NCBI RefSeq assembly: GCF_000426225.1 | Contig: NZ_AUEY01000010.1 | Coordinates: 1 to 64,000, forward strand | DNA: 64,000 nucleotides | Source of the DNA: Desulforegula conservatrix Mb1Pa | GTDB taxonomy: Bacteria > Desulfobacterota > Desulfobacteria > Desulfobacterales > Desulforegulaceae | Reading direction: 5' to 3' | Part shown: one piece after another, positions 13,723-63,446 of the stretch | Numbering within the stretch: the stretch's first letter is position 1 | How the letters are laid out: every line of letters begins with the position of its first letter | The notes under the pieces: model-generated | Database searches by the model: none | What the model saw: only the letters and a program-made list of their open reading frames with translations | Told to the model about the DNA's origin: nothing | Position numbers and translations under genes: made by a program

Positions 13723-14043
13723 GGCTATGTTCACCTTAGATACTATACTCATCAATGTCACAGCTTGAACATTTGAAATGAGTCAGGCCGTTTGAATGGC
13801 AAGCCTGTTGTTGCATCATTACTGGAAAACCCTTTTGAAAAAGGGTTTTCCAGACCTTTCCCAAAACTTTTATGTTTTTTTATTACGAGTTGAGAACATA
13901 TGTTTTTAAAGCAAAAGAATCCATAACCGAAAAGTTTTTGCCAAGCTTTTTTCAAAAAGCGACCCGCAGGAGGCCCCTTTTTAGTTATTAATATCAGAAT
14001 GATATTCTATAAAATACTTTTCTACACTTAAAGTGAACATAGC
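13723..14043. repeat. Family B miniature element, copy 1
   Basis: The 321-bp element has ends GGCTATGTTCACCTTAGA and, on the other strand, GCTATGTTCACTTTAAGTG. It contains the family core AAGCGACCCGC..GGAGGCC near 13966 and a strong internal hairpin GGAAAACCCTTTT/AAAAGGGTTTTCC (13828-13852). The flanks are TTTTTAAT and TTTTAAAA, which may be a decayed 8-bp duplication. It lies between hflX and dnaB and encodes nothing recognisable. Confidence 0.8.
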
Positions 14044-14078
14044 TTTTAAAAAAAAGGGGAGAGCTTCTTGTAATTTCT

Positions 14079-15434
14079 TTAGCCATGATACGGCTCATAA
14101 GCCAGATCTTCAAATCGTGTATACTGGCCTAAAAAAGCAAGGTGCACGGTTCCTACAGGGCCGTTTCTCTGTTTTGCTATGATTATTTCAGCCTTGCCCT
14201 TATTAGGGTTGTTTTCATCCTTGTTGTAAACCTCATCCCTGTAAATGAACATTACGAGGTCAGCATCCTGTTCGAGTGCACCTGACTCGCGAAGGTCGGA
14301 CATTATGGGACGCTTGTCACTCCTCTGCTCAAGCATTCGGTTAAGCTGGGAAAGAGCAATCACAGGAACCTGAAGCTCTTTGGCCAGGGCCTTGAGTGAT
14401 CTTGAAATTTCCGACACTTCTATGGTTCTGGATTCAGATCCTGCTCTGCCCCTCATAAGCTGGAGGTAGTCAATTATGATAAGGCCAAGATCTTTTTCCA
14501 TTTTAAGACGCCTCGATTTTGCACGTATTTCCATGGCAGTAAGGTCTGGTGAATCATCAATAAATATAGGAGCATCACTCAGAATACCAGCGGCTTCGGT
14601 GATTCTGTGCCAGTCGCTCGAAGAAAATTTACCGTTTCTTATAAGGGATGAGTCGACCCTTGCTTCTGAAGCAAGCATACGCATGGAAAGCTGTTCCTTG
14701 GACATTTCAAGGGAGAATACAGCTACTGGCTTTTTGGAGATGAAGGCCGTGTTTCTTGCAATGTTAAGTGCAAAAGCGGTTTTACCCATACTTGGACGTG
14801 CTGCAAGGATAATAAGATCCGAATTCTGAAGACCAGAAGTCATATTGTCTAATTGCCTGAAGCCGGCAGGGGTTCCTGTATAAATCTCGTTTTTGTTCTG
14901 GCGATCTTCAAGAGTATCTATATTTGTCTGGATGATATTACTTATTGAGTAAAACGAAGGTTTTATTTTATCGCCCGATGCTTCGAATATAGCTGTTTCA
15001 GCAAAATCTATGGCATCTTCGACATCCACCTGGCTGTCATGGCATTTTTGAATGATTGTGGATGCTTTATTAATCAGTCTTCCAAGGACGGCCTTGTCCT
15101 TAATGATCTTTGCGTAATGTCTGGCGTTGACAGCCATGGGCGCAGTGTCGATGATTCTTGCAAGATACGATGCTCCGCCGATTTCTTCGAGCTGTCCTTT
15201 TTTCTGGAGCATTTCAGAGAGAGTTACAAGGTCAACAGGTTCACTCTTAGCAAAAAGATCAGAGACAGCAGCAAATATTTTTTTATGTGAAGGCTTGTAA
15301 AAATCATCTGGTGACAGTATTTCAACAACATCAATAAGGGTTGAATTGTCAAGAAGTACAGCGCTAATGACCGACTCTTCGGCCTCAACATTTTGAGGAT
15401 ATCGTCCCTGTGAGCTTGAGTCTGAGTATGCCAT
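14079..15434 (-). CDS. dnaB: Replicative DNA helicase DnaB
   Basis: This 451-aa hexameric 5'-3' helicase has an N-terminal DnaB domain (PQNVEAEESVISAVLLD onward) and a RecA-like C-terminal domain. The latter has Walker A ARPSMGKTAFALNIA (about 213-227), Walker B LIIIDYLQLM, the SRSLKALAKEL motif and the arginine-finger region RESGALEQDADLVMF. No intein or insertion is present. It is the last gene of the rpsF-rpsR-rplI-dnaB cluster, a common bacterial order. A hairpin between rplI and dnaB probably lowers its transcription relative to the ribosomal genes. Confidence 0.97.
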   Translation of the reverse strand: MAYSDSSSQGRYPQNVEAEESVISAVLLDNSTLIDVVEILSPDDFYKPSHKKIFAAVSDLFAKSEPVDLVTLSEMLQKKGQLEEIGGASYLARIIDTAPMAVNARHYAKIIKDKAVLGRLINKASTIIQKCHDSQVDVEDAIDFAETAIFEASGDKIKPSFYSISNIIQTNIDTLEDRQNKNEIYTGTPAGFRQLDNMTSGLQNSDLIILAARPSMGKTAFALNIARNTAFISKKPVAVFSLEMSKEQLSMRMLASEARVDSSLIRNGKFSSSDWHRITEAAGILSDAPIFIDDSPDLTAMEIRAKSRRLKMEKDLGLIIIDYLQLMRGRAGSESRTIEVSEISRSLKALAKELQVPVIALSQLNRMLEQRSDKRPIMSDLRESGALEQDADLVMFIYRDEVYNKDENNPNKGKAEIIIAKQRNGPVGTVHLAFLGQYTRFEDLAYEPYHG

Positions 15435-16888: not shown

Positions 16889-17021
16889 GATGGTCTCGCA
16901 AAAAGTCAAAAACGGGCGGTGTCGTCATGCTGGACTTGATCTGGCATATTTGTATTTTTAGATATTTCTGGATTTCGGCCTGCGCCGTAATGACGGAAAT
17001 CGGTCTTTTTGCGACTTTGTC
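16889..17021. repeat. Family A miniature element, copy 2
   Basis: This 133-bp copy runs from GATGGTCTCGCAAAAAGTC to CTTTTTGCGACTTTGTC, with inner GCCGG-type arms. The flanks AAAATT and AATATA do not form a clear duplication. Confidence 0.8.
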
Positions 17022-36733: not shown

Positions 36734-36865
36734 GATGGATTCGCAAAAAGTCCCAAAAAGGCGTCGGCGTCATGCCGGACTTGATCCGGTATTCAGTCTT
36801 TTCAGTAAGTTATGGATTCAGGCCTGCACCGGAATGTCGGGAATAGGGCTTTTTGCGACCTTGTC
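36734..36865. repeat. Family A miniature element, copy 4
   Basis: The 132-bp element runs from GATGGATTCGCAAAAAGTC to CTTTTTGCGACCTTGTC, with a perfect ATTTTT target duplication on both flanks (36728-36733, 36866-36871). Confidence 0.9.
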
Positions 36866-51107: not shown

Positions 51108-51236
51108 GACAAGGTCGCAAAAAAGTCCGGTTCTCTTAATTACTGCGCAGGCTGGGATCCAGAAGTATCTGAAAATACAAATATGCCGGATCATGTCCGG
51201 CATGACGCTGTTGCCTTTTTTGACTTTTTGCGGATC
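51108..51236. repeat. Family A miniature element, copy 8, fused to a family B fragment
   Basis: The family A left end GACAAGGTCGCAAAAAAGTC and arms are clear. The right end (TTTTTGCGGATC) runs directly into a decayed family B right half (about 51228-51335: CTTTTTTCAAAAGAGCG, then GTAGTTATTGGAATAATAAA). The join suggests one element inserted into the other. Confidence 0.75.
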
Positions 51237-51564: not shown

Positions 51565-54500
51565 TTGAAAAAGAGCAGTTCTCGAAATTCAGATGGTTTC
51601 ACTCCTATTGCCATTACCGGGATAGGATGCATATTTCCTAAATCAACAGGAGCAAAAGAGTTTTGGCGCGCCCTGTTCATGGGGCTTGACTGTGTTGGTG
51701 AAGTGCCTGAATCTCACTGGTCACCGTCTGATTATTATGACGAAGATCCCCAGAAACCTGATCACGTTTATTGCAAAAGGGGTGGGTTCATAGATCCTCA
51801 GGCTTATGATCCTTCTGAATTCGGGATACCTCCTTCAATTCTTGAAGCGACTGACTCGTCCCAGCTGCTTGGGCTAATAGCCGCAAAAATGGCGTTGAAT
51901 GACGCCGGATATGGCGAAGGCGGCAAGGAGTTCAACAGGAATAAGACCAGCGTAATAATAGGAGCAACCGGAACCCAGGAACTGACAGTTCCGCTTGCAA
52001 CTCGTCTTGGTCATCCTGTTTGGCGAAGGGCGCTGAATGATGCTGGTATTCCATCTGAAAAGACTGAAGAAGTCATCAAGAGAATATCCGCTGGTTTTGT
52101 CTCATGGCAGGAGAGTTCATTTCCAGGACTCTTAGGAAATGTGATAGCCGGAAGAATAGCGAACAGACTTGATTTGGGAGGAACAAACTGTGTGGTTGAC
52201 GCAGCTTGCGGAAGCTCGCTCGGCGCTATTCACCTTGCCCTTCTTGAGCTATTGACAGGCAGAAGTGATATGGCGATTACAGGGGGCGTTGACCTTCTTA
52301 ATGATATTTTTATGCATATGTGTTTTGCAAAGACAGGAGTTCTTTCAAAATCAGGAGATGCCAAACCTTTTTCTGAAAATGCGGATGGCACGGTACTTGG
52401 TGAAGGCATAGGCATGCTGACGTTGAAACGCCTTGAAGATGCAGAAAAAGATGGAGACAGAATCTACGCTGTAATTAAGGGCGCAGGTTCATCCAGCGAT
52501 GGCAAAAGCCAGAGTATTTACGCGCCCAATGCAAAGGGTCAGGAAAAGGCGCTTAAAAAGGCTTATGAGTTTGCCGGGTTCAGTCCTGCAACAGTTGATC
52601 TTGTTGAAGCCCATGGCACAGGAACAAGGGTAGGCGATGCAGTTGAATTCAATGCATTGCGCCACGTCTTTTCAAAGAGAGAAGAAAGAAATCAGATTGC
52701 GCTTGGCTCTGTAAAATCAATGATTGGCCATACAAAAGCCGCTGCCGGTGCTGCTGGAATGATAAAAACAGCTCTTGCCATTTATAATAAGGTAATACCT
52801 CCGACGTTGAAAATTTCTGTGCCTGACCCGAAGCTTGAAATAGAAAACAGTCCATTTTATCTACCATCAATATCTTTACCGTGGTTTTCAAATGATGAAC
52901 ATCCAAGAAGAGCCGGTGTATCAGCTTTTGGATTTGGAGGCAGCAATTTTCATATGGCACTCGAAGAATACAAAAAAGATAAAAATGAGCCGTCATGGGA
53001 TGGATCAATTGAAATATTCGCTTTCAGCTCTGATTCCAGAGAGGATTTGATGAAAGCTTTTGAAAAAGCAAGGAACACCATCGTTTCTGATGGCAAGATG
53101 ACAAGTCTGACAGCCTATGAATCAAGAAAAAGTTTTGATTCAAAAAAGAATTACAGACTTCTTGCTTCAGCGCTTTTTGACAAGGTTGGGGAGGTCTTTG
53201 AAAAGACAAAGGCAATGCTTGATGCAGGAGAAAAGGATTATACTTCCCGCTCAGGGTCAGCCTATTATGCAGAAGGTTCCAAACCAGGAAAAATTGCTTT
53301 TATTTTTCCAGGACAGGGAAGCCAGTATACAGGCATGGCGCGCGAGCTTTCCTGTATATTCCCGGAGATGATGGAAAGCATTGAAAAAGCTTCATCAGTT
53401 TTTAAAGGGGATCAAAAACTTCATGATCTCATCTATCCGAGATCAGGCGTAGAAGAAGAGAACGAATCAAATCTTAGAAATACTTCTGTTGCCCAGCCTG
53501 CCATAGGAGCAGTTAGTCTTGGAGCAATGAAGATTCTTGAAAGATTTGGCATAAAGCCTGACTCAGTATGCGGCCACAGCTTTGGTGAGCTTACTGCGCT
53601 TGCATCAGCAAAAAGTATAACTGAAGAGGATTTCTTCAAGCTTGCGGTTCTCCGAGGCAAATATATGGCTGAAGCAGGGAAGGGCGGAGACGCCGGAACC
53701 ATGCTTGCCGTAAAAGCACAGCTTGCTGATATTGAAAAAATGATAAGCGAAACCGGAGTGGATGTTGTTCTTGCGAACAGAAACAGCCACGACCAGGGAG
53801 TTCTGTCTGGTTCAGCAGAGGCAATTGAACAGGCAAAACAGCTTTGCAAGGAAAGAAAGATGAGAGGCTCCCAGCTCAATGTGGCGGCAGCCTTTCATAG
53901 TAAATATGTTGCTTCAGCTGCTGTTCCATTTTCTAAAGAGCTTGAAAAAATTGATTTCAGAAAAAATGAAATCCCGGTTTTTGCAAACACCACGGCTGCT
54001 CCTTATCCTTCGAGTATTGAGGAATCAAGGCATCTTCTTGGGAACCAGCTTGTGAATTCCGTCAATTTTGTCGGAATTATCGAAACCATGCATTCTTCAG
54101 GCGTTCATACCTTCATAGAAACAGGCCCCAAGACAGTTCTTACCGGGCTTGTAAAGTCGATACTCAAGGGCAAGGCTTTTGAATGCGCGGCAACAGACGA
54201 TTCATCCGGTAAAAAATCAGGCCTCCTTGATATCGCGACCCTTCTTTGTAAACTTGCTGCCATTGGCCATGAAATAGCTCTGGAAAACTGGGAAACCAAG
54301 CCTCTTGTTCCAAGAAAACCTAAAATGAATATTCCAATCAGCGGTACAAACTATAGAAGCCCAGAAAAAATTATTAAAATTCCGGCTTCTGAGCCTATGG
54401 TGATGACAAATTCTTCACTTTTATCTGCGAATGTCTCCGAAGTGGCAATAGAGAAAAATATAGAAACTAAGCCAGAAGTGGAAAACATAAAAAATGCTTC

Positions 54501-57500
54501 TGAATTAAAAAATGTGGCCTTGTCTTCAAACAATGATCCCATAATTGCGGTTAATCCTCAGATAACAGATTCTGCAAAAAATGTTTCTTCTGGCCCGGAA
54601 AGGCCGCCATCAATGGGCACTCAGGTTAGTAGTGTCTCTTCAAAATCTGCGGATGCAGCGGTAAGGTCAATTAATGAAGGTTTCAAGGCGATGCAGTCGC
54701 TTCAGATGCAGACTACAGACGCACACAAAAAATTCCTTGAAACCCAGATGCAGGCAAGTAAAACCCTCGAAACCCTGATGCAGAAGATCGGTGAAATATC
54801 TGGAATGACTTCTTCTGTCCAGGCATATGCTAATAACGTCTCTTCTGCTCCTGCTCAGAAAACCGTGAAGGCTGAATCATATCCTGATAGTAAACCTGCT
54901 TATGTTCAGAAAACTGCTGAACCTGAAAAAGCAATTATTGAAACAAAACAGGCTCCAAATGTAACGGTTGTTAAAACCGAGATTCATTCTCCAAAGTCTG
55001 CTTCTGTTGCTAAAGCAGATGCGATCGACCCTGAAAAAATTAAAAATGCCCTTCTTGGTGTTGTAAGCGATCTTACAGGTTATCCGGTTGAAATGCTTGA
55101 TCTTGATATGGATATCGAATCTGATCTCGGCATAGATTCTATCAAGAGGGTTGAGATTCTTTCAGCGTTTGAAGAAAAAATGCCTGGAGCCGGTAATGTT
55201 GATCCTTCAGATCTTGGAAGGCTTAAAACCCTTGGGCAGATAATTGACCATGTTTCAGTTAATTTACCGGTTAATGCCCAGACTGCCAATATTCCTTCAA
55301 GTTCAAAAGCCAATATTCAGGCTGGCCCTGATAAGGAAAAAATAAAGGAAACGCTGATAGATGTTGTCAGCAATCTTACGGGCTATCCTGCGGAAATGCT
55401 TGATCTTGATATGGATATAGAGTCAGATCTCGGCATAGATTCTATCAAACGGGTTGAGATTCTTTCTGCTTTTGAAGAAAAGATGCCCGGAGCTGGAAAT
55501 ATTGATCCTTCAGACCTTGGAACACTTAAGACTCTTGGCCAGATAATCGATTATATAGTCAAGATTTCTCCATCTGATTCTACTATTGTTTTGCAGGACT
55601 CTTCGGCTAGTGTGAATAAATCTGCAGATTCTGATGAAATAAGAGTGGCTCTTCTTGATGTGGTGAGTTCTCTCACAGGATATCCAGTGGAAATGCTTGA
55701 TCTTGATATGGATATTGAATCTGATTTAGGAATAGATTCAATCAAACGAGTTGAGATTCTTTCAGCTTTTGAAGAGAAGATGCCAGGAGCCGGAAATATT
55801 GATCCGTCAGACCTTGGAACGCTTAAGACTCTTGGCCAGATAATTAAACATGTATCCACCAATCATTTATCCATAAGGCATGTCTCTCAATCAGGGCCTT
55901 CTGAAACCGCCACAGTAAATGTTCAGGCATCTTCTTCAGGACATGATTCTGAAAAAATCAAAGATCTGCTTATTGAAGTCGTAAGTAGTCTAACAGGCTA
56001 TCCTTCGGAAATGCTTGATCTTGATATGGATATTGAGTCTGATCTTGGTATTGATTCCATAAAAAGAGTCGAGATTCTTTCAGCTTTTGAAGAAAAAATG
56101 CCGGGGATTCCTCCTGTTCAGCCTGATGATCTCGGAAAACTGAAAACCCTTGGCCAGATAATCAGTCATATTAACAGCCTCTGCTCAGGGTCTGGCAGTA
56201 AAGAACAGCCATCTGCAATATTATCAGAAGCAGGCCCAATTGAGGTTAAGTCTGCTGATAAGATCTCCTTGCCAGAAGATATCTCAAGAAAAACCGTAAA
56301 TGTTTACAAGATGACTGGTTCTGCTTCTTCAGAAAAAATTGTCTTGCCAGACTCAGGAACGGTTTTTGTAACAGGCTGTCTTGATGGACTTGGAAAAGAA
56401 GTTGCCCAAGAGCTTTCATCTAAAGGCATTAATGTTAAAACCATTGATATTGACCAGCCAGACCAGAAAGATCAGCCAGATCAGATAGACTGGGCCGGGC
56501 AGTTTTCTGATAATGCCGCAGGTCTGATTATTGTAGCGGATAACTCTCCTGAATCAGGAATCTGGAAGGATTCAAAAGCAGACTTTCTTAAAAAAGCTTT
56601 TCTTGCAGCAAAAAATGCTTCTGCCAAGCTCTGCGCGGCTGGCAAGGAAAAAAGCGCTGTTTTTGCAACAATAACAAGACTTGATGGCGCTTTCGGCTTT
56701 CTTACCTCAAATATCTCTGATCCGATGCAGGGCGCTCTTCCTGGTCTGGTTAAAACAGCAAGAATCGAGTGGCCAGATGTTTCATGCAGGGCTTTTGACG
56801 TCAGTCCTTTTATATCAGACATTAAAAAAACAGCTTCTCTTATTGCGGATGAAATTCTGTCAAAAGGACCTGTTGAAACCGGATTTGATGATTTCTCACA
56901 GTATGGTCTTGAGCTTGAAGATGTGAGCTTCAGCAAGCCGGTTCAAACAATGGGCAAGAATGATGTTGTTATTATAACCGGAGGCGCAAGAGGAGTTACA
57001 GCTGCATGCGCTGAAGAGCTTGCTGAATTCTGTCAGCCGATAATGGTTCTGCTGGGCAGATCTCCCGAACCTGAAAAAGAACCTGCCTGGCTTTCCAGCG
57101 TTAATGGTGAGCCTGCGATGAAAAAAGCCATTCTTGATAATGAGTTCAAGGGCAAGAAGGCAACTCCCCAGGAACTTGAAAAATCTTACAGAAAATTCAA
57201 GGCTGGAAGAGAAATTTCAGAAACAATAGACTCGATAAAATTAAAAGGTTCAAAGGCCTTTTATTATCAGGCTGATGTAAGAAGTCATTCTGACATGGAA
57301 ATGGTCGTAGACAAAATTAGAACAAAATATGGCTCTGTAAGCGCAATAATTCACGGAGCTGGAGTTCTTGAAGACAGATTCATTGCGGACAAGACAATTA
57401 CCCAGTTTGAAAACGTATTCGGAACAAAAACCGAAGGACTCAAAAATATTCTCGACGCCACAAGAAACGATCCTCTCAAGGCCATTGTATTCTTCTCTTC

Positions 57501-58716
57501 AGTATCCGCCAGAATGGGGAACAAGGGGCAGGTTGATTACGCAATGGCCAATGAAGTTCTTAACAAGATGGCTGTTTATGAATCCTCCAAGAGGCCTGGA
57601 TGCAGGGTTGTTTCAATAAACTGGGGGCCTTGGGATGGGGGCATGGTTAATCCAGCCCTCAAAAAAGAATTTAGCAGACAGGGCATAGATCTTATACCAA
57701 TCAAATCAGGTGCTGCCGCAATGGTTTCTGAAATGTGCTCTTCAGCTGATGGGCTCGTCGAAGTTGTAATAGGAGCCGAATTCAGGCACGAAGATAAACC
57801 GTCTGACAGGAAAAAAGATGAAGTTTTTTCTTCTGATCAGGGAATCGTTGTGAAGGCAGGAATTTCAGAATATCCTGTTCTTAAAGATCATATGATTGGC
57901 GGGAAGGCAGTTGTTCCTGTGGCCATCATGTCTGAATGGTTTGCCCACGCCGCCCTTATTTCCAATCCAGGACTTCATTTCCAGGCGCTTGAGAATCTCA
58001 GGGTTCTTAATGGAATAAAGCTGGATTCTGAAAGTGCCGAATTTAAAATTTCAGCTTCCAAGCCTGTTAAAATTGACGGCTTATTTAAGACTGATCTTGA
58101 AATAAGAAGCATGACAAAAAACGGATCGGAAAGAATTCATGCAAGGGCCACTGCAGTTCTTGGAACAAAAAAGGCAAAATTCACAGGAGATAAAAACACC
58201 GAGCCAGTCTATTCCGAGATTCCCATGGCAATTACAGCCGAAGATATGTACGAAAAGATTCTTTTTCACGGCAACAGCCTTAAAGGAGTCTCTGAAATCA
58301 AAGGCTTGTCAGATAAAGGGATGACAGCGATTGCAGCAACTGCGCCGTCTCCTTCTGATTGGATAATCAATCCTTTAAGGAAAAAGTGGGTTTCTGATCC
58401 GCTGATTCTTGATTCGGCGTTCCAGATGGCTTCGGCATGGTGCTATATGAATTACGGGAAAGTTTCTCTTCCTTCGTTTGCAGTCCAGTATATTCAATAT
58501 GCTGATAAATTTTCACCCGGAAATATCGAAATATCCATGAAAACCAAATCTGTATCTGGCAGCAGAATGTCCGCCGATTTTGTTTTTACCAGTGAAAGCG
58601 GAGAAATTATCGCTGAAATCAAGGGTTTTGAATCTGTCATGGATTTTTCTCTGAATCAGGTTTTTAAGAAAGATGGCATCAAGCTTAAGGTTGTTGTTCC
58701 AGCAGATCTTAATTAA
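51565..58716 (+). CDS. PfaA-like iterative type I synthase: KS-AT-ACPx4-KR-DH
   Basis: The protein has 2383 residues with a TTG start 4 bases after AGGTGA. The ketosynthase (about 12-470) has DAACGSSLG (C215), VEAHGTGTRVGD and the His in SMIGHTKAAAG. The acyltransferase (about 575-880) has FPGQGSQYTGM and GHSFGELTA (S672). A long Ser/Ala/Gln-rich linker (about 930-1150) follows, then four carrier domains with phosphopantetheine serines at 1192, 1293, 1392 and 1498, all in LGIDSIKRVEIL. A ketoreductase begins at ITGGARGVTA (1806). A C-terminal double-hotdog dehydratase has H2109 (HMIGGKAVVP) and D2283. The layout is that of PUFA-synthase subunit PfaA. PfaB, PfaC and PfaD are not adjacent, so the product is unknown; an unusual lipid is likely. 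Confidence 0.9.
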   Translation: MKKSSSRNSDGFTPIAITGIGCIFPKSTGAKEFWRALFMGLDCVGEVPESHWSPSDYYDEDPQKPDHVYCKRGGFIDPQAYDPSEFGIPPSILEATDSSQLLGLIAAKMALNDAGYGEGGKEFNRNKTSVIIGATGTQELTVPLATRLGHPVWRRALNDAGIPSEKTEEVIKRISAGFVSWQESSFPGLLGNVIAGRIANRLDLGGTNCVVDAACGSSLGAIHLALLELLTGRSDMAITGGVDLLNDIFMHMCFAKTGVLSKSGDAKPFSENADGTVLGEGIGMLTLKRLEDAEKDGDRIYAVIKGAGSSSDGKSQSIYAPNAKGQEKALKKAYEFAGFSPATVDLVEAHGTGTRVGDAVEFNALRHVFSKREERNQIALGSVKSMIGHTKAAAGAAGMIKTALAIYNKVIPPTLKISVPDPKLEIENSPFYLPSISLPWFSNDEHPRRAGVSAFGFGGSNFHMALEEYKKDKNEPSWDGSIEIFAFSSDSREDLMKAFEKARNTIVSDGKMTSLTAYESRKSFDSKKNYRLLASALFDKVGEVFEKTKAMLDAGEKDYTSRSGSAYYAEGSKPGKIAFIFPGQGSQYTGMARELSCIFPEMMESIEKASSVFKGDQKLHDLIYPRSGVEEENESNLRNTSVAQPAIGAVSLGAMKILERFGIKPDSVCGHSFGELTALASAKSITEEDFFKLAVLRGKYMAEAGKGGDAGTMLAVKAQLADIEKMISETGVDVVLANRNSHDQGVLSGSAEAIEQAKQLCKERKMRGSQLNVAAAFHSKYVASAAVPFSKELEKIDFRKNEIPVFANTTAAPYPSSIEESRHLLGNQLVNSVNFVGIIETMHSSGVHTFIETGPKTVLTGLVKSILKGKAFECAATDDSSGKKSGLLDIATLLCKLAAIGHEIALENWETKPLVPRKPKMNIPISGTNYRSPEKIIKIPASEPMVMTNSSLLSANVSEVAIEKNIETKPEVENIKNASELKNVALSSNNDPIIAVNPQITDSAKNVSSGPERPPSMGTQVSSVSSKSADAAVRSINEGFKAMQSLQMQTTDAHKKFLETQMQASKTLETLMQKIGEISGMTSSVQAYANNVSSAPAQKTVKAESYPDSKPAYVQKTAEPEKAIIETKQAPNVTVVKTEIHSPKSASVAKADAIDPEKIKNALLGVVSDLTGYPVEMLDLDMDIESDLGIDSIKRVEILSAFEEKMPGAGNVDPSDLGRLKTLGQIIDHVSVNLPVNAQTANIPSSSKANIQAGPDKEKIKETLIDVVSNLTGYPAEMLDLDMDIESDLGIDSIKRVEILSAFEEKMPGAGNIDPSDLGTLKTLGQIIDYIVKISPSDSTIVLQDSSASVNKSADSDEIRVALLDVVSSLTGYPVEMLDLDMDIESDLGIDSIKRVEILSAFEEKMPGAGNIDPSDLGTLKTLGQIIKHVSTNHLSIRHVSQSGPSETATVNVQASSSGHDSEKIKDLLIEVVSSLTGYPSEMLDLDMDIESDLGIDSIKRVEILSAFEEKMPGIPPVQPDDLGKLKTLGQIISHINSLCSGSGSKEQPSAILSEAGPIEVKSADKISLPEDISRKTVNVYKMTGSASSEKIVLPDSGTVFVTGCLDGLGKEVAQELSSKGINVKTIDIDQPDQKDQPDQIDWAGQFSDNAAGLIIVADNSPESGIWKDSKADFLKKAFLAAKNASAKLCAAGKEKSAVFATITRLDGAFGFLTSNISDPMQGALPGLVKTARIEWPDVSCRAFDVSPFISDIKKTASLIADEILSKGPVETGFDDFSQYGLELEDVSFSKPVQTMGKNDVVIITGGARGVTAACAEELAEFCQPIMVLLGRSPEPEKEPAWLSSVNGEPAMKKAILDNEFKGKKATPQELEKSYRKFKAGREISETIDSIKLKGSKAFYYQADVRSHSDMEMVVDKIRTKYGSVSAIIHGAGVLEDRFIADKTITQFENVFGTKTEGLKNILDATRNDPLKAIVFFSSVSARMGNKGQVDYAMANEVLNKMAVYESSKRPGCRVVSINWGPWDGGMVNPALKKEFSRQGIDLIPIKSGAAAMVSEMCSSADGLVEVVIGAEFRHEDKPSDRKKDEVFSSDQGIVVKAGISEYPVLKDHMIGGKAVVPVAIMSEWFAHAALISNPGLHFQALENLRVLNGIKLDSESAEFKISASKPVKIDGLFKTDLEIRSMTKNGSERIHARATAVLGTKKAKFTGDKNTEPVYSEIPMAITAEDMYEKILFHGNSLKGVSEIKGLSDKGMTAIAATAPSPSDWIINPLRKKWVSDPLILDSAFQMASAWCYMNYGKVSLPSFAVQYIQYADKFSPGNIEISMKTKSVSGSRMSADFVFTSESGEIIAEIKGFESVMDFSLNQVFKKDGIKLKVVVPADLN

Positions 58717-58768
58717 GGGTACTGAGTTCATACTATTGAAGAATCATTCTTTTCAAGCCTTAAGATTA

Positions 58769-58888
58769 ACAAGACCAATTATCGTCATTCCGGCGCAGGC
58801 TGGAATCCAGAAGTAATTGAAAATACTGGATGCCGGATCAAGTCCGACATGACGCCAATGCCCTTTTTTGATTTTTTGAGAGACCATC
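58769..58888. repeat. Family A miniature element, copy 9 (decayed)
   Basis: Inner arms TCATTCCGGCGCAGGCTGG and ATGCCGGATCAAGTCCG are clear. Both outer ends have drifted (AACAAGACC, GAGAGACCATC). Confidence 0.75.
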
Positions 58889-60504: not shown

Positions 60505-61452
60505 TTACCATTCCGCATTTACTTCAGGATTAATGAATAAAGAGGAATTTATATTTATTAGTTCAATAAACAGTATTTCGTCCATCTCGGTTTCAAAAAG
60601 AGTTTGGGCCTTTAAAAGCTGGTTAACAGTTAAACCTTTTGAGTCCCTTAGATTGGCTTTCTTCAGATAGGCCCCCTCAAAAGCAGCACCTTCAAGATCA
60701 CAACCCTTCAGATTGACACTAAAGAGGTTGCATCCGCTCAAGTCCGCATTTGTGAGGTTCGCGTTTTCCAGATTCGAATTTTCAAGGTCTGATTCATTTA
60801 GTTTTGATTCCTGCATGACAGCGTTTATAAATATTGTGTTTCTGAGATCTGCATTTTTGAGGTCAGCTTTCCATAAGACAGCGTTTTTAAAATTAGCATT
60901 TGAAAGAACAGAGCTGTACAGATTGGTATCTTCCATATAAGAGTTTGCCATGGAGGCATTTCTGAGATCGCAAAAACTCATGTCAGAACGCCACATATTA
61001 GCGCCCTCAAGATTGTACCGCCTCATATCCATGTTCCTTAGATAGCAGTTATTAAGATCAATTGCGCTGATACCGATTTCATTCATTCTTTTTATATTGC
61101 CCCTGATCCTTCTGGCGGCTTCCTCAGCTTTCCAGTTCCTGAAATCGTCTATCTCATCCTGGTATCTTCTTGCAAGAAGCTTGTTATTTCCTTTCTGCTG
61201 GAACCAGACGATGATCACACCAAGCATCAGAATATCAATAAGAACGCCGTGGGCCTCGGCCAGAAGGTTTTCCGTGAAAGACCTCGGGCCATAATAATCC
61301 TTTGATATGAAAAGTACGAATCCTAACATGACAATAAAAACAACTACAGATATGCTGATTGGGTTGGTTATCAATTTTTCGAACCAGTCTTCTTTTTCAG
61401 AACTGAGTGAAAAATGCTGATACGGTTTATTTTCAGAATTTTTTTTGTTCAT
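60505..61452 (-). CDS. Membrane-anchored pentapeptide-repeat protein
   Basis: The protein has about 315 residues. Two hydrophobic segments (about 33-55 and 72-92) are followed by a charged helix (RRYQDEIDDFRNWKAEEAARR). About 25 tandem A(D/N)LxX pentapeptides follow (residues about 135-270, e.g. ADLKNADLRN and ANLTNADLSGCNL), forming a right-handed quadrilateral helix facing the cytosol. A short non-repeat cap ends the protein. The longer open frame upstream (to 61818) runs through a family A element and was discarded; MNKKNSENKP at 61452 is the first plausible start, although its Shine-Dalgarno is weak. The function is unknown. Confidence 0.8.
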   Translation of the reverse strand: MNKKNSENKPYQHFSLSSEKEDWFEKLITNPISISVVVFIVMLGFVLFISKDYYGPRSFTENLLAEAHGVLIDILMLGVIIVWFQQKGNNKLLARRYQDEIDDFRNWKAEEAARRIRGNIKRMNEIGISAIDLNNCYLRNMDMRRYNLEGANMWRSDMSFCDLRNASMANSYMEDTNLYSSVLSNANFKNAVLWKADLKNADLRNTIFINAVMQESKLNESDLENSNLENANLTNADLSGCNLFSVNLKGCDLEGAAFEGAYLKKANLRDSKGLTVNQLLKAQTLFETEMDEILFIELININSSLFINPEVNAEW

Positions 61453-61494
61453 AAAGAGTAATGCACCAGGAAATGGATGGTTTGCAGTATTTAT

Positions 61495-61650
61495 GATGGA
61501 CTCGCAAAAAGTAAGATTCCCGTCATTCCGGCGGGGCTTGTACCAGTGAAAACAGGGAGCCGGAATCAAGAAGTAATTGAAAATACACAGATGCCGGATC
61601 AAGTCCCGGTATGACGTCGACGCCTTATTTTGACTTTTTGCGGTCTTGTC
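61495..61650. repeat. Family A miniature element, copy 10 (extended)
   Basis: The 156-bp copy has intact ends GATGGACTCGCAAAAAGT and TTTTTGCGGTCTTGTC and a perfect ATTTAT duplication (61489-61494, 61651-61656). It is longer than the others through an extra GGCTTGTACCAGTGAAAAC segment that also occurs at about 39648. Confidence 0.9.
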
Positions 61651-61751
61651 ATTTATGAATGCAGTATGGATTTTTTCTTTATTTATGTCAATTTTCAAGT
61701 AAACAATGCGATGATGAAAGCATCTGTATTTCAAGGCAACCGCAAATAGCC

Positions 61752-61854
61752 GTTTCCCGTCATACAGTCGAAGTCCGTAATCCGGAAATATCTGAAAATA
61801 CAGGATCAAGTCCGGCATGACGCCACCTCTTTTTGGTGCTTTTGCGAACCCATC
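61752..61854. repeat. Family A fragment
   Basis: Inner arms CAGTCGAAGTCCGTAATCC and GGATCAAGTCCGGCATGACG and a right end GCGAACCCATC remain. The left end is missing. Confidence 0.65.
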
Positions 61855-62315: not shown

Positions 62316-63446
62316 ATGAATATTCTCATTACAGGCGGTGCCGGATTCATCGGTTCCCACACTGCTGACGGGCTTTTACGTGATGGTCACAGGGTCACCA
62401 TTTTGGACAATCTACAGAATACTGTTCATCCAAAGGGTAAGCCGGATTATCTGCCTGAAAAAGTGAACTTCATACTTGGAGACGTCAGGGAAAAAAAAGA
62501 CTGGGAAAGGGCGCTTGAAGGCATAGACGCTGTATATCATCTGGCGGCATATCAGGATTATCTTCCTGACTTCTCGACTTTTTTTCATGTGAATACGGTT
62601 TCAACCGCGCTCATGTATGAGACAATAGTCGAAAAAAAACTGAACGTTAAAAAGGTCATAGTAGCAGCTAGTCAGGCAGTAATGGGAGAGGGCAGATACA
62701 GATGCGCCATGTGTTTTTCTGGAAAAGGCATCGATGTATTTCCTGAAATAAGAATAGATTCCCAGCTTTCAAAAGGCGACTGGGAGCATTCATGCCCTGA
62801 ATGCGGGACCAGACTTGACTGGCAGCCATCTGATGAGACGGTTATCAAGCCTTGCAACCAGTATGCTATTTCAAAGTATTCCCAGGAGCTGATAGCCATA
62901 CAGCTTGGAAGGAGATACGGAATTCCAAGTGTTGCAATGAGATATTCAATTGTCCAGGGACCCCGTCAGTCATTTTATAATGCCTACTCTGGAGCCATGC
63001 GTATTTTTGCTCTTTCTCTTTTTTTTGATAAAGCCCCCACAATCTTTGAAGACGGCAACCAGGTAAGGGATTTCGTTAATATACATGATGTGGTTGACGC
63101 AAACCTTCTGGTGCTGGAATCAGACAAGGCCAATTACAGGGTTTTTAATGTAGGCGGAGGAAAAGCTTATACTGTAAGGGAGTTTTATCAAAAAATGCAG
63201 GATATTACTGATAAAAGTCTTGATCCGATCATATCAGGGTATTACAGGTACGGCGACACAAGGCATATCTTTTCTGATGTCAAAAATCTCGAGTCACTTG
63301 GATGGAAGGCAAAAAGAAACGTTGATGAAAGCATTTCAGAATACTGGGATTATCTTAACAGGCAGACCGACATTCAGGAAATACTCAGTTATGCTGACAA
63401 GCATATGAAGAGTCTTAATGTTATCAGAAAGGCAAAAGAAATCTGA
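62316..63446 (+). CDS. NAD-dependent sugar epimerase/dehydratase with CxxC pairs
   Basis: This 376-aa extended SDR has the cofactor loop TGGAGFIGSH (6-15), DNLQN and LAAYQDYLPD, and the catalytic YAISK (Y183, K187). The site that is usually SSxxVYG reads ASQAVMGEG. Between them an insert carries CAMC (C130, C133) and CPEC (C160, C163), a likely zinc-ribbon. It probably changes a nucleotide sugar, like UDP-glucose epimerases. The next gene, a nucleotidyltransferase, starts 1 base after its stop, so both probably make one activated sugar. Confidence 0.88.
   Translation: MNILITGGAGFIGSHTADGLLRDGHRVTILDNLQNTVHPKGKPDYLPEKVNFILGDVREKKDWERALEGIDAVYHLAAYQDYLPDFSTFFHVNTVSTALMYETIVEKKLNVKKVIVAASQAVMGEGRYRCAMCFSGKGIDVFPEIRIDSQLSKGDWEHSCPECGTRLDWQPSDETVIKPCNQYAISKYSQELIAIQLGRRYGIPSVAMRYSIVQGPRQSFYNAYSGAMRIFALSLFFDKAPTIFEDGNQVRDFVNIHDVVDANLLVLESDKANYRVFNVGGGKAYTVREFYQKMQDITDKSLDPIISGYYRYGDTRHIFSDVKNLESLGWKAKRNVDESISEYWDYLNRQTDIQEILSYADKHMKSLNVIRKAKEI

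Follow-up and report, generated by a model that had tools for sequence, protein, structure and literature searches.

A polyunsaturated-lipid synthase gene (pfaA) of a sulfate-reducing bacterium, spread together with its likely Pfa and Ole partners over four separate loci

The gene at 51565-58716 of the window (the whole stretch of DNA analysed, 64,000 nucleotides from Desulforegula conservatrix Mb1Pa) encodes an ordinary PfaA, a subunit of the synthases that make polyunsaturated lipids, and its owner is a sulfate-reducing bacterium. The protein probably serves as first subunit in a Pfa synthase that is complete although its genes are dispersed; OleA would couple the resulting polyenes head-to-head to give a long-chain polyunsaturated hydrocarbon. 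The Pfa and Ole genes are distributed over four contigs: pfaA on C10, pfaBC-oleAB on C7, pfaD on C83 and oleCD on C27. A dsrA gene is also present (594 bits); as this is over the cut-off of 393, the owner of the genome is very probably a sulfate reducer, in line with the anaerobe proposed in an earlier, sequence-only reading.

The reading frame of pfaA lies exactly where that reading placed it; it begins with TTG, encodes 2383 aa and has no internal stops. Its features are as follows.

51565..58716, + strand: pfaA, polyunsaturated-lipid synthase subunit KS-MAT-ACP4-KR-DH (open reading frame, TIGR02813, identity to relatives)
51604..53118, + strand: KS domain with C-terminal extension (PF00109/PF02801/PF16197, residues 14-518; Cys/His/His motifs)
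53299..54168, + strand: malonyl-type acyltransferase (MAT) domain (PF00698, residues 579-868; GHSFGE and AFHS motifs)
55031..56174, + strand: four tandem acyl carrier domains (DNA repeat units and four LGIDSIKRVEI motifs)
55031-55256, 55334-55559, 55631-55856 and 55949-56174, + strand: ACP repeat units (76-82% DNA identity, spacing 297-318 bases)
56968..57636, + strand: ketoreductase (KR) domain (PF08659, residues 1802-2024; S/Y/N motif)
57844..58635, + strand: PKS-type double-hotdog dehydratase (DH) (PF14765, weak PF21089; both catalytic motifs)

The whole protein scores 1695 bits against TIGR02813 (omega_3_PfaA, NCBIfam; cut-off 1010), which bears out the earlier assignment to the PfaA-like, PUFA-type secondary lipid synthases, and it shows 44-60% identity to pfaA of other Desulfobacterales. 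Pfam detects ketoacyl-synt (210 bits), Ketoacyl-synt_C (143), Acyl_transf_1 (138), four PP-binding stretches, KR (129) and PS-DH (36), so that the domain order is KS, acyltransferase, four carrier domains, KR and PKS-type dehydratase, as had been proposed. The four ACP units share 57-66 of 75 residues in pairwise comparison, and all carry the LGIDSIKRVEI motif. Catalytic motifs are intact in the KS, AT, ACP, KR and DH: the KS active site has its Cys in VDAACGSS and its His residues in HGTGT and GHTKAA, the KR has a Y-x3-N motif, and the DH retains both of the catalytic residues previously ascribed to it, H2109 in HxxxGxxxxP (HMIGGKAVVP) and D2283 in DxxxQ. A terminal PKS-type DH ("DH-PKS") is not unusual in the PfaA of PUFA synthases. 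Promoter and terminator scans around pfaA returned matches at chance level.

The sequence-only reading took the gene to be standalone, without PfaB, PfaC or PfaD, and recommended a genome search for KS-CLF-DH, enoyl reductase and PPTase genes. When the contigs of this draft genome (178 contigs, 96% complete, estimated contamination 0.8%) were searched by family and by region, all of these were found, and the claim of a standalone synthase falls. A KS search of the genome shows two further large KS proteins besides PfaA. On C7 there is a PfaBC fusion of 2332 aa (KS-CLF-AT-4xFabA), in which the CLF is KS-like with the active Cys replaced (SCDSASG). It matches the solved chain ORF10 (6riw), which we take to be the KS-CLF of PfaC, at 335 bits, and scores 92 bits against the PfaB family, under the cut-off of 144. 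PfaD is encoded at C83:9111-10424 (635 bits, cut-off 449), and the KS-CLF, second AT, FabA-type DH pairs and PfaD of a complete Pfa synthase are all found in the genome. There are two PPTases, on C72 and C5, neither linked to pfa genes. OleA lies beside PfaBC on C7 (456 bits, equivalog cut-off 285) and is adjoined by an OleB-like alpha/beta hydrolase, which is syntenic with oleB of relatives and scores 163 bits against its nearest model (haloalkane dehalogenase), under the cut-off of 241. OleC is on C27 (751 bits, cut-off 478) and is overlapped by a putative OleD (3Beta_HSD, 197 bits); the models scored are PRK09258 and PRK09274, which stand for OleA and OleC, respectively. An epimerase gene of the window (62316-63446) was considered as OleD and rejected in favour of the better candidate overlapping OleC.

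Other genes occur around these loci. On C7, pfaBC and oleA are separated by a gene for a FUSC-type membrane protein, and upstream of pfaBC lies one for a patatin-like phospholipase (L009:5702-6250, 13871-15004); neither was seen at this position in the relatives compared. Adjoining pfaD on C83 is a gene (L015:10980-12101, - strand) for a phage-integrase-type domain joined to two TOBE (molybdate-binding) domains. In the window, the gene downstream of pfaA is PD40/WD40-like, as was earlier suggested, and the upstream neighbour, formerly called a binding protein, is without a Pfam match; that both are unrelated to the synthase still stands. Near the PD40 gene, at 60505-61818 (- strand), lies a pentapeptide-repeat protein that is probably membrane-anchored.

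The genes occupy four separate loci, and the draft assembly gives no distances between contigs. This follows from their flanks: upstream of pfaA its contig runs on for 51 kb of unrelated sequence, and unrelated genes flank pfaD, pfaBC-oleAB and oleCD on either side. The same flanks weigh against an assembly or binning artefact, in which the genes would truly be clustered, or the partners would come from another organism. The draft state of the genome, and the mere 13.5 kb of C83, lend this some substance, but with the low estimated contamination, and with one intergenic repeat shared by C7, C10, C27 and C83, it is scarcely credible.

This repeat (~105 bases, with a palindromic part, ATGCCGGATCAAGTCCGGCATGACG) borders pfaA on both sides, outside the synthase, as direct repeats that are ~80% identical.

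51120..51229, + strand: intergenic repeat copy upstream of pfaA (repeat comparison)
58768..58876, + strand: intergenic repeat copy downstream of pfaA (repeat comparison)

The bordering repeats reported earlier are therefore real, but they are not special to pfaA. The genome has 40 or more scored copies, about a dozen of them in the window (16902-17007, 36747-36851, 51123-51226 and 58771-58875 included), and in the loci read one occurs roughly every 5 kb; copies also stand directly downstream of pfaD and directly upstream of pfaBC. Given this high copy number, the bordering copies say nothing special about pfaA, and a reading of the gene as orphaned or transposed between flanking repeats was rejected. 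That a cluster was broken up via the repeats is possible and, at such density, a guess.

Lineage bears on the same question. Across 54 relatives (1431 pairs), identities of PfaA (first 930 residues) and PfaD are correlated (r 0.88), and the window PfaA-PfaD pair falls on that line (mean residual -1.1, sd 3.2), so that the two genes, though apart, behave as a single lineage. In a PfaA tree built from a set without the type sequences of Shulse & Allen, the window gene has a long branch within Desulfobacterales, among members that include a MAG named Desulfosudis oleivorans. Neither the identity relation nor the tree would suggest a foreign or relict pfaA.

A second PfaA-like megasynthase of 3903 aa is encoded on C72 (L010:5398-17109, - strand). 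It has FabK-like N-terminal stretches, three KS-like stretches, an AT, four ACPs, a KR and a DH-like end, and is followed by the PPTase and acyl-CoA carboxylase/decarboxylase-type genes. KS matches are also found in reading frames of 3.7-4.2 kaa in several other genomes of the order (G008, G013, G016, G019, G025, G034). The C72 protein was considered as the missing PfaC and rejected, because it is an independent megasynthase that brings a PPTase of its own. The Type S synthase of Desulfobacterium autotrophicum (PMC3098273) is a candidate relative of this protein; the likeness concerns the C72 gene, and the window pfaA has a different architecture. Its presence, like the unrelated flanking genes and repeats of the window, would accord with a pfaA that is a true orphan, horizontally acquired or relict, making another lipid alone or with the Type-S-like synthase. 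Such an origin is highly improbable, since partners exist elsewhere in the genome, all PfaA motifs are intact, PfaA groups inside Desulfobacterales and fits the PfaD distances, the repeats are genome-wide, and the C72 protein already has its own KS, AT, ACP, KR and FabK-like stretches.

A genome scan for relatives of the window protein gave 246 stretches, of which 80, nearly all from Desulfobacterales, were retained; in most of these 80 loci pfaD is directly upstream of pfaA. Cultured species with a pfaD-pfaA locus include Desulfosarcina alkanivorans (L028) and D. widdelii (L054). One Myxococcaceae contig (L019) has pfaD-pfaA-pfaBC-oleA-oleB-oleC-oleD as seven genes in one run, and two genomes (G009 and G013) have a pfaBC-oleA-oleB-oleC-oleD run. 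The order was surveyed with 40 genomes, one per family, own genome included. The presence table was made from listed matches, and weak fragments were counted as present, so its numbers are approximate: the full set of PfaA, PfaD, PfaBC, OleA and OleC occurs in ~33 of the 40 (32 of the 39 other families). PfaA and OleA are found together in 35, OleA without PfaA in one (a 65% complete genome), and neither in four (Fisher p 5e-5, kinship ignored). Among the 33 full-set genomes, pfaD-pfaA lie within 10 kb in 26, pfaBC-oleA in 25 and oleA-oleC in 23. The set thus usually lies at two places, one with pfaD-pfaA and the other with pfaBC-oleABCD. With the full PfaBC counted, pfaA and pfaBC come within the same 10 kb of each other in seven genomes or more (G003, G004, G008, G012, G013, G022, G029); counting its C-terminal part alone gives five. 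In G009, a complete genome, 1.1 Mb separates the two. With four loci, Desulforegula has gone further than the usual two. G016 shows the pfaD-pfaA split too, on long contigs; contig ends interrupt the view of this linkage in G007, G015, G017, G036 and G037. The pfaA reading frame of G016 (contig C80, L126:3172-11652) encodes 2859 aa and continues into an extra FabA-like stretch.

By analogy with characterised synthases (PMC12895367, PMC6463001), we infer both one working complex and its product. The MAT of PfaA would load malonyl units onto the four ACPs, primed by an Sfp-type PPTase from C5 or C72, and its KS would condense, its KR reduce and its DH dehydrate. PfaBC would contribute a second KS with chain-length factor and a second acyltransferase for the last elongations, its two FabA-type dehydratase/isomerase pairs placing cis double bonds, with PfaD as the enoyl reductase during chain extension. 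OleA would then draw on the PfaA ACPs for polyunsaturated acyl chains, joining two of them head-to-head, and OleD, OleC and OleB would finish a long-chain polyunsaturated olefin (C31:9-like). In Shewanella this route has been shown genetically: OleA takes Pfa intermediates, and Pfa-derived 16:4 acyl chains become C31 polyenes (PMC6463001). As the genes lie on four contigs, no shared operon backs one complex in this genome.

OleA could instead act on ordinary fatty acids, and PfaBC could hand PUFA to phospholipids. A dispersed synthase of this kind, yielding free or phospholipid-bound PUFA (EPA-, DHA- or AA-like) while the Ole genes use ordinary fatty acids, has in its favour that every domain of an EPA/DHA synthase is present, and that the second AT is of the kind off-loading PUFAs in gammaproteobacteria (PMC12895367), even if its PfaB-family score is below the cut-off. 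It is nevertheless unlikely: oleA stands beside pfaBC in 25 of the 33 full-set genomes as well as here, D. alkenivorans is without reported PUFAs (PMC3098273), and Geobacter bemidjiensis makes C31:9 (PMC4882568). Polyene hydrocarbon synthesis by Pfa and Ole together is thus the preferred reading. A tentative generalisation, held with slightly more doubt than belief, is that it is near-universal and mostly vertical in Desulfobacterales, and works even at four loci.

What looked like an orphan PUFA-type synthase is thus no longer a puzzle. The subunits of one synthase are unlinked here, with pfaA, pfaBC and pfaD on C10, C7 and C83; clustering of pfa genes is usual but not required for function, and cluster-based mining misses such pathways. 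If lipid analysis bears out the joint action of Pfa and Ole, polyenes in anoxic sediment would have a large source, so far little noticed, in the sulfate reducers, and the protective role suggested for strict anaerobes would become testable. This kind of Pfa synthase is itself known, deltaproteobacterial types having been published in 2011 by Shulse & Allen (PMC3098273). The modestly new points are only the four-locus dispersal and the near order-wide Pfa and Ole set, a distribution in Desulfobacterales for which no report was found in the open-access literature.

The closest known systems are similar in parts but differ in gene arrangement. The four ACPs of the window PfaA are within the 4-6 of Type A (PMC3098273). 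Type I/C/K deltaproteobacterial synthases also have a PfaA of KS-MAT-ACPn-KR, a fused PfaBC and PfaD, and occur in anaerobes; the layout KS-CLF-AT-DH2 (Type C) is shared by the PfaBC of C7, and for Type I a link with ole genes was suggested, as here. These types are gene clusters, in contrast to the three loci of pfaA, pfaD and pfaBC in Desulforegula (PMC3098273). Shewanella pfaABCDE and oleABCD are alike in that ole genes may stand away from pfa, and unlike in that pfaABCD is clustered, PfaB is separate from PfaC and the host is not a sulfate reducer (PMC6463001). Geobacter bemidjiensis, a strict anaerobe, has the same Pfa and Ole functions in one tandem cluster (pfaD, A, B, C, oleA, B, C, D and pfaE) with a measured product, C31:9 (hentriacontanonaene), where Desulforegula has four loci and a predicted product (PMC4882568).
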